Source: an uncultured Acidobacteriaceae bacterium (GTDB lineage Bacteria > Acidobacteriota > Terriglobia > Terriglobales > Acidobacteriaceae). From it: DNA of 64,000 nucleotides. A model generated the notes under the pieces. That model was not told the origin of the DNA. It did not search any database and worked only from the letters and a program-made list of their open reading frames with translations. Positions 44,641 to 46,190 of this stretch are shown in pieces (within the stretch, counting starts at the first letter, position 1; every line of letters starts with the position of its first letter). The translations under genes were made by a program, and so were the position numbers. Location of the stretch: contig CAINJJ010000047.1 in NCBI GenBank assembly GCA_903849645.1, positions 1 to 64,000 of the forward strand, read 5' to 3'.

Positions 44641-44680
44641 GGGCCGGGAAAAGGAAAGGGACCCATCGCGCGATGAGTCC
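44641..44680 (-). repeat. Terminator-like 40-bp repeat, inner copy (R1)
   Basis: On the minus strand the block begins at the last base of the Nmad3 stop codon and forms a 9-bp stem (GGACTCATC/GATGGGTCC, one G-U pair) with loop GCGC. It is followed by the pyrimidine-rich CCTTTCCTTTTCCC. This is a good rho-independent terminator. The same 40 bases, with one mismatch, recur at 46031-46070 on the other side of the two-gene cassette. Confidence 0.8.
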
Positions 44681-45402
44681 TACCGGAGGGAAAAGACGAA
44701 GCGTGCTGCGCTTTCGGTGAATTCCCGGCTCACCCAACGAGGTGGGCTCCGTTGGATGCTGGTGTTCCCTCCAAATCCACCAAATATCAACTGCATTTCG
44801 GGTGCAAGGCGCTGCAAGGGTCGCCCATTCTTGTCCGTTCCCACCGAGCTTATCCTGATCGCCTTCTTCAGCAAGCGGCTCTTGGCGGTTCCTTTTATCA
44901 GAGCCAATCGGTCCTTCTGGTCCTGGAAAACAGCTGCGTGCTTGACGTGAAAGTTGTTTTGGAACATCCCATCCAATTCGGTCCGGCTGAAGGAAGCGGC
45001 CACGCCCGCCCGAGCGACCTCAAAGTAACCAATGATGTACAAGGCGGGGGAGCATTCGAAATCCCAACCCTTCAGCCCTGCATAAAACACCAATAGGCTG
45101 CCTTCGCCAAGCTCCCGGAGTTTCGCTTTTGGACTGGTCGGGTCGCCGTAAGTGAATGTCTCGAACTCAGGATCGAAGTGAATCGGTTGGCCCAAGACCC
45201 GCTCACGGCGAGACTCAGGAAAATAGTTGACTAGCTCGATTCCTTTTCGACCAAGCGTGTTGCCGTACGTTCTCTTATCTACGCCCATGCCCTTGAAACC
45301 ATCAGGAATCGGGATGTACTCGAAGGATCCATCGGCAAAGAGCGGGCCATGAATCCCGCCAGAACCGGTGTCGATTCCGACTCTTAGCAGGACGACTTGC
45401 AT
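44680..45402 (-). CDS. Nucleotide-modification-associated domain 3 (Nmad3) protein
   Basis: This 240-residue protein begins MQVVLLRVGIDTGSGGIHGP and continues FADGSFEYIPIPD, the pattern I recall for Nmad3. Other conserved-looking parts are LVFYAGLKGWDF, ALYIIGYFEVA and HAAVFQDQKDRLALIKG. The domain was named from computational surveys of systems that modify DNA bases; its chemistry is not established. It overlaps the Nmad2 gene by 19 bases and has GGGAAAGG as ribosome binding site inside that gene. Base composition is lower in GC than the neighbours, pointing to transfer. The domain call is from memory of motifs. Confidence 0.7.
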   Translation of the reverse strand: MQVVLLRVGIDTGSGGIHGPLFADGSFEYIPIPDGFKGMGVDKRTYGNTLGRKGIELVNYFPESRRERVLGQPIHFDPEFETFTYGDPTSPKAKLRELGEGSLLVFYAGLKGWDFECSPALYIIGYFEVARAGVAASFSRTELDGMFQNNFHVKHAAVFQDQKDRLALIKGTAKSRLLKKAIRISSVGTDKNGRPLQRLAPEMQLIFGGFGGNTSIQRSPPRWVSREFTESAARFVFSLR

Positions 45403-45977
45403 TTCTTGACCTTTCCCAGATCATCCAGACTCATTCCGTGAGGCTCTCCATGGATACCCTGTTTGAATTCGCTGGTTAGCCATTCAAGAAACGGTCTAAA
45501 ATCTGCTTCTCCGACGTAGTGAAACCCTCGGGGATTCTTCTCAAGATGAAACTTCCGAATGTCGATTGCTTGTCTTCCGAAATAATAGAAGTTCCAGGAA
45601 ATAAGAGCGAATTGGTTGTGCCGCGCAAAATCGCTTGGAATTAGGTTGTCTCCCATCCTCTTTTTGTATTCGCCACTATCCGGAGGTCTCTTGAGAGCAA
45701 ATCTGCGTTGTGAAAAGTATTGGCCGCGATCAATCTTCTCATCCACCCGCATTGCGTAGATGAGCTTTCCATGACCCGCGCTCCTAGCGCTCACACCACC
45801 AGTGCCGATGATCCAATCCCCTTCTTCCGCCAATTCAACAATATTCTTCCGGCCTTCCTTTCCCTGCGTTATCTCAGCCTTCTCGTTGAATTTGCAGCGG
45901 CAAAGGGTGCAAAAACCGAAATAAGGATTGGGTGCACGCCCGTTGTCGTGGTCAACGACATAAGAGAAAACCTTCAT
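45384..45977 (-). CDS. Nucleotide-modification-associated domain 2 (Nmad2) protein
   Basis: About 197 residues start at ATG 45977 with MKVFSYVVDHDNGRAPNPYF and GFCTLCRCKF, the hallmark of Nmad2 proteins. GDWIIGTGG and GHGKLIYAMRVDEK follow, then LKRPPDSGEYKKRMGDNLIP. The frame is open further upstream to 46082, but that part belongs to the repeat copy R2. A TATACT -10-like box lies at 46007-46012 on the minus strand; no good -35 is seen. The gene is followed and overlapped by the Nmad3 gene. The pair likely acts in a nucleic-acid modification or sensing system whose role is unknown. Confidence 0.7.
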   Translation of the reverse strand: MKVFSYVVDHDNGRAPNPYFGFCTLCRCKFNEKAEITQGKEGRKNIVELAEEGDWIIGTGGVSARSAGHGKLIYAMRVDEKIDRGQYFSQRRFALKRPPDSGEYKKRMGDNLIPSDFARHNQFALISWNFYYFGRQAIDIRKFHLEKNPRGFHYVGEADFRPFLEWLTSEFKQGIHGEPHGMSLDDLGKVKKCKSSC

Positions 45978-46030
45978 AGCAATGCCCGCTTGTCTTTGGA
46001 TTTGGCAGTATAATTTTATACCTCGAACGC

Positions 46031-46175
46031 GGGCCGGGAAAAAGAAAGGGACCCATCGCGCGATGAGTCCCTGCCAAAGCAATGAGTCGAAGTATGCCGA
46101 GCTCGGTGAGAACTCCCGCTGCGGCCTCGACCTAATGGATTCAATTCATCTTCGGTGCATGGCGATTGGAGAGCC
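46031..46175 (-). pseudogene. Decayed 3' end of a second Nmad3-like gene plus terminator repeat, outer copy (R2)
   Basis: Bases 46031-46070 repeat the 40-bp terminator block found after the intact Nmad3 gene (39 of 40 bases equal). Upstream on the minus strand, 46071-46175 still aligns with the last codons of Nmad3: a piece like CACCGAAGATG matches the part encoding LAPEMQL, and a CGGGAGTTCTCACC-like piece matches the one encoding SREFTE. The copy is frameshifted and diverged. It therefore looks like the tail of an older Nmad3 allele left beside the present cassette. Confidence 0.6.
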
Positions 46176-46190
46176 TCGCCCTGCCTGCCT

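Follow-up and report, generated by a model that had tools for sequence, protein, structure and literature searches.

EVE, ASCH and YTH domains are grouped in the PUA-like superfamily; the ASCH family includes reported RNases, and ASCH-type nucleases exist. In Type IV restriction a reader is combined with a nuclease, as exemplified by the EVE-HNH protein VcaM4I and the N-terminal reader of McrB. Two further points of comparison are Thoeris (ThsA/ThsB) and the nucleotide-centric TIR/SLOG/MazG/5hmdU-kinase immune operons that Burroughs et al. reportedly predicted in 2015 (cited in PMC13092281). The Nmad (nucleotide modification associated) domains take their name from genome context; no assigned chemistry was found for them in the papers searched. 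In DefensePredictor (PMC13092281), one NMAD is named in the legend to the validated systems and a second is listed with the predicted ones. Both domains, and predictions of defence links for Nmad-type genes, are already known.

The window analyzed here, a 64,000-nucleotide stretch of a contig from an uncultured Acidobacteriaceae bacterium, carries an Nmad2-Nmad3 gene pair set among housekeeping genes, with no effector. Its features are the following.

44641-44680, minus strand: 40-bp repeat, downstream copy; terminator-like hairpin located at the stop codon of Nmad3
44680-45402, minus strand: Nmad3 gene, second of the pair (240 aa; Pfam PF18754; predicted PUA-like fold, AlphaFold)
45384-45402, minus strand: overlap of the Nmad2 end and the Nmad3 start, 19 nt, translational coupling (same overlap in loci L021 and L022)
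45384-45977, minus strand: Nmad2 gene, first of the pair (197 aa; Pfam PF18753; predicted PUA-like fold, AlphaFold)
46031-46070, minus strand: 40-bp repeat, upstream copy; terminator-like hairpin assigned to the M28 peptidase gene as its terminator

The identity of both genes, proposed in an initial annotation made from the letters of the DNA, was confirmed by HMM search, with matches far above the curated Pfam cut-offs for Nmad2 (2.8e-34, 118.8 bits, cut-off 26.1) and Nmad3 (4e-30, 105.7 bits, cut-off 27). Because of these E-values and of the recurrence described below, the two genes are not chance reading frames. No PADLOC or NCBIfam model matches either protein. The Nmad2 frame, the single Nmad2 gene of its genome, stops at 45384 on the minus strand and has its likely start at the ATG at 45977. 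The 19-base overlap claimed in the same annotation is indeed present, and is reproduced exactly in the Acidobacteriota pairs L021 (the same place as L007) and L022. The sequence GGGAAAGGTCAAGAAATG lies directly 5' of the Nmad3 ATG and contains, inside Nmad2, a Shine-Dalgarno-like GAAAGG.

When compared to Type IV restriction, the pair is alike in its predicted fold, a PUA-like reader being the best structural match for Nmad3 and a close one for Nmad2, but the window holds no McrB-type AAA domain, and among its open reading frames and Pfam matches no nuclease gene lies in or beside the pair; nuclease-like neighbours occur only in some relatives. The earlier statement that no methylase, glycosyltransferase or nuclease stands alongside is right for the window. 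The likeness to Thoeris consists of a ThsB-like TIR gene next to Nmad2 in relatives (PADLOC, 3.6e-52), whereas neither the window nor its own genome carries one (no ThsB_TIR match). Nmad2 relatives are also recurrent in operons of the TIR/SLOG/MazG/5hmdU-kinase make-up; in contrast, the window pair has Nmad3 as partner and none of the other genes of such operons, since TIR, SLOG, MazG_C, kinase, TS and UDG genes were looked for in the window and none was found. A MazG_C search of the own genome also gave no match, but the control genomes gave none either.

Both families keep distinctive residues. Nmad2 proteins carry the motif SYVVxxDxGxAPNPxxGxCTLAxCK, with D11, C28 and Y87 invariant and N17, C23, R92, K96, D110 and N111 nearly so; Nmad3 proteins carry the motifs RxGxD and HxDP, and R7, D11, H75, D77 and H152 are invariant across very divergent members. 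In the Nmad2 tree the window protein forms with L021-L025 a well-supported clade of six; in this clade an insertion follows CTLxxCK, and the W-Q-S-HS loop seen in other Nmad2 proteins is missing.

Confident AlphaFold models were obtained for Nmad3 (pLDDT 88, pTM 0.88) and Nmad2 (pLDDT 85, pTM 0.83). The leading Foldseek matches of the Nmad3 model were the McrB N-terminus (E-value 5.5e-3, probability 0.90) and ASCH, EVE and YTH proteins, and its 50 VIA-align rows were EVE-, ASCH-, YTH- and THYN1-type proteins, with Z-scores of 8.2 for the EVE-type structures 2p5d and 1wmm, 7.6 for VcaM4I and 7.0 for THYN1 with 5mC DNA. The Nmad2 model matched ASCH (E-value 3.8e-3, probability 0.97; ZmASCH was the nearest Foldseek match), THYN1, the DISARM complex DrmAB, EVE, the McrB N-terminus and YTH, and reached a VIA Z-score of 8.5 against YTHDC1 with m6A. 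As the single scores are modest (Foldseek E-values of 4e-3 to 6e-3, none reaching 0.001, and middling best Z-scores of 8.2-8.5), the fold assignment relies on the uniformity of the match list: nearly all leading structural neighbours of both models are PUA-like, the superfamily of EVE, ASCH and YTH (PMC7641849, PMC7897488). Both Nmad2 and Nmad3 are thus predicted to adopt a PUA-like fold, in line with the shared fold for which the initial annotation had proposed structure prediction as a check. The fold was not confirmed by sequence profiles: searches of the PDB with both proteins gave no relevant match and Pfam no EVE, ASCH or YTH match. Direct sequence homology between Nmad2 and Nmad3 was also considered and rejected, the profile-profile comparison not being significant (probability 2%). 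In predicted fold and size the two proteins resemble EVE, ASCH and YTH single-domain proteins; they differ from these in sequence family and in conserved motifs, and in being two different such proteins in a coupled pair.

The distribution of the pair was surveyed in 84,980 species genomes, where 149 Nmad2 candidates were confirmed; the best 80 were used, a sample biased to close relatives. Nmad3 adjoins Nmad2 at 15 of these best 80 loci, from Acidobacteriota, Planctomycetota, Nitrospirota, Thermodesulfobacteriota, Pseudomonadota, Cloacimonadota, a Myxococcota-assigned record and one archaeon, so that the adjacent pair, whose recurrence the initial annotation had left to be surveyed, recurs across several bacterial phyla. 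The genes overlap by 1-19 nt in most pairs, and their order is reversed at L073 and L087. The L021 proteins are 75% (Nmad3) and 58% (Nmad2) identical to those of the window, and dN/dS between L021 and L022 is about 0.2-0.3 (NG86), i.e. purifying selection. Three further genomes of the window's genus (G300, G342, G352) have pairs of a longer Nmad3 subfamily, one of which (L161) lies between xfp (phosphoketolase) and ackA (acetate kinase). Other pairs lie mostly among unrelated housekeeping genes, such as dihydroorotate dehydrogenase at L045, and defence genes are few. Altogether the pair is present in 4/80 genomes of the genus, each gene is found in 6/297 genomes of the phylum, and both also occur alone in other genomes. 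The pair is a rare, patchily distributed and probably horizontally moving unit. A phage origin is not supported: neither window protein matched any of 50,697 phage records, and scans of viral contigs gave 8 loci for Nmad2 and, for Nmad3, one with a wider alignment and none with a narrow one. On the IMG/VR contigs L145, L147, L148, L144 and L141, which are classed as viral, Nmad2 is accompanied by MazG_C, UDG, DCD and HMUDK-like genes, with TIR in several, and these Nmad2 modules may be carried by phages or prophage-like elements.

The composition of the cassette is foreign. Its GC content is about 0.48-0.55 (approximately 0.48 for Nmad2 and 0.55 for Nmad3) against 0.65-0.70 in the flanks, and GC3 is 0.53 and 0.64 in its two genes against 0.84 and 0.86 in the neighbouring ones; both measures agree with the earlier remark that it is richer in AT than its surroundings. 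The Nmad2-Nmad3 pair of the window is probably horizontally acquired. Its bracketing by near-identical terminator repeats was confirmed. The two direct repeats are identical at 39/40 positions, with a single base different, and each looks like a minus-strand terminator, with a hairpin and then a T-rich tail, but only the upstream copy folds better than shuffled sequences (z -2.8), the downstream one not (z -0.92). A search of the 4.5-Mb genome that allowed up to 3 mismatches gave no further copy, and the repeat was not found at the M28 peptidase and carbonic anhydrase genes in the loci examined from relatives. These two flanking genes lie at different places in the relatives that have both, so that no clean empty site was found. 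The idea that such cassettes generally carry these repeats was also considered and rejected: none of 14 other Nmad2-Nmad3 pairs carries anything comparable, and for that reason we assign the repeats to the arrival of the cassette and not to the system. On the simplest reading, the cassette would have come with, or via recombination at, a terminator that belongs to the M28 peptidase gene upstream and is now duplicated. It is to be noted that the cassette enclosed by the two copies (44641-44680 and 46031-46070) has no recombinase gene.

The neighbourhoods of Nmad2 differ with its partner. We compared the 65 Nmad3-less loci with the 15 Nmad3-paired ones, all from the best 80 of 149 confirmed Nmad2. 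In 44 of the 65, a ThsB-like TIR gene abuts the 5' side of Nmad2 with a gap of -7 to +18 nt; MazG_C (28 loci), 5-hmdU-kinase-like (HMUDK, 27), SLOG-like (22), UDG (10) and TS (8) genes also occur among the 65 loci, and DCD genes are frequent too. None of the 15 paired loci has TIR, MazG_C, HMUDK-like, SLOG, UDG, TS or DCD, and neither does the window (for TIR, Fisher p = 8e-7, the loci being taken as unrelated). TIR and Nmad3 partners fall on two sides of the Nmad2 tree; the labels change 3 and 5 times, compared with 25.6 and 14.9 times when shuffled. Nmad2 lineages thus exchange partners, TIR immune proteins against Nmad3. The TIR-Nmad2 pair itself (44 loci within L026-L100, e.g. L040:5480-6681) is very constant across many phyla, and is apparently an uncharacterised immune module in its own right.

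Other relatives are associated with nuclease- or defence-linked genes. In the clade of the window protein, the L025 Nmad2 lies beside the DISARM genes drmB and drmC (L025:2953-7687); an overlapping downstream gene there (378 aa, no Pfam match) has a D...EVK stretch that recalls PD-(D/E)XK nucleases. A NOV_C-domain gene begins 25 nt downstream of the L024 pair, and the Nmad2 of L037 neighbours NucS-like (NucS_C) and HhH-glycosylase-like (Ogg-HhH) genes. Within the window's genus, genome G298 has a divergent Nmad3 without Nmad2 (L160:5049-6761), preceded at 27 nt by an HNH-like gene, whose HNH match is below the Pfam cut-off, and situated about 3 kb from an N6/N4 DNA methylase gene, which looks like a modification-dependent restriction arrangement. 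Separately, the Halorientalis plasmid pHOS300 (L150:6001-10623) encodes a 430-aa Nmad3 whose C-terminal half is unassigned; its gene is convergent to QueC-like and PfkB/nucleoside-deoxyribosyltransferase genes, a context that suggests a link to 7-deazaguanine or modified nucleotides.

The mobile, stand-alone pair may be a sensor or blocker of modified bases or nucleotides, with predicted PUA-like folds, directed against foreign elements, and we give this model roughly an even chance of being right. Since Nmad2 and Nmad3 are translationally coupled, they are probably made in fixed proportion and act together, and they would form a complex. A PUA-like pocket could then bind a modified base or nucleotide that most likely stems from a foreign source (phage or mobile element), and the pair would act as a small sensor or blocker in anti-phage defence. 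The output is the weakest step of this mechanism, because no effector is linked to the pair. The suggestion of a minimal unit that makes, reads or regulates a modified nucleotide survives in part: the predicted PUA-like folds favour reading over making, and the Nmad2 context points to nucleotide-sensing anti-phage systems and not to self-modification. More tentatively, the two PUA-like readers could be a self-sufficient, effector-less immune unit in which Nmad3 takes the place of TIR beside Nmad2.

The chief rival to a sensor or blocker, because both families keep invariant polar residues, is enzymatic action: the two proteins would be ASCH-like PUA-fold hydrolases or nucleases acting on a modified nucleoside or RNA, either both catalytic or one catalytic and one a specificity subunit. 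Those residues are conserved over very wide divergence, ZmASCH is the nearest Foldseek match of the Nmad2 model, and an enzyme would need no separate effector, of which none is present; however, binding domains dominate the same fold group, base-binding pockets also have invariant polar residues, and neither protein was shown to carry the catalytic motif of any known ASCH enzyme, so that we consider this reading unlikely. A role in maintaining or salvaging the host's own modified nucleotides, as house-cleaning or regulation, is less probable again. It would account for pairs placed between housekeeping genes (the window, L161, L045) and for the nucleotide-metabolism genes at related Nmad2 loci, but these genes accompany TIR and SLOG immune proteins, and a patchy unit of foreign composition does not fit a core host function.

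Two further readings appear very improbable. An addiction pair of the toxin-antitoxin kind could be expected from two small, overlapping, mobile genes with no other cargo, and ASCH-type nucleases are known, yet both proteins occur alone in other genomes, the gene order can be reversed (L073, L087), and no antitoxin-type DNA-binding domain was found. The pair could equally be what is left of a larger nucleotide-sensing immune operon in decay, its effector already lost, Nmad2 relatives being most often found within larger TIR/MazG/kinase operons; we attach little weight to this because the intact pair recurs: the same minimal arrangement exists in many phyla as clades of its own, both frames are intact, relatives are under purifying selection and the overlap is conserved.

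The paired effector-less layout, the predicted PUA-like fold of both proteins and the exchange of TIR for Nmad3 were not found in the literature searched, outside which lie the founding Nmad papers (Iyer 2013, Burroughs 2015). The Nmad2-Nmad3 minimal pair would be easy to handle at the bench, because two small genes suffice for its expression. With the predicted PUA-like folds and the partner exchange, the description "nucleotide modification associated" becomes a testable claim that these families may be modified-base or nucleotide sensors.
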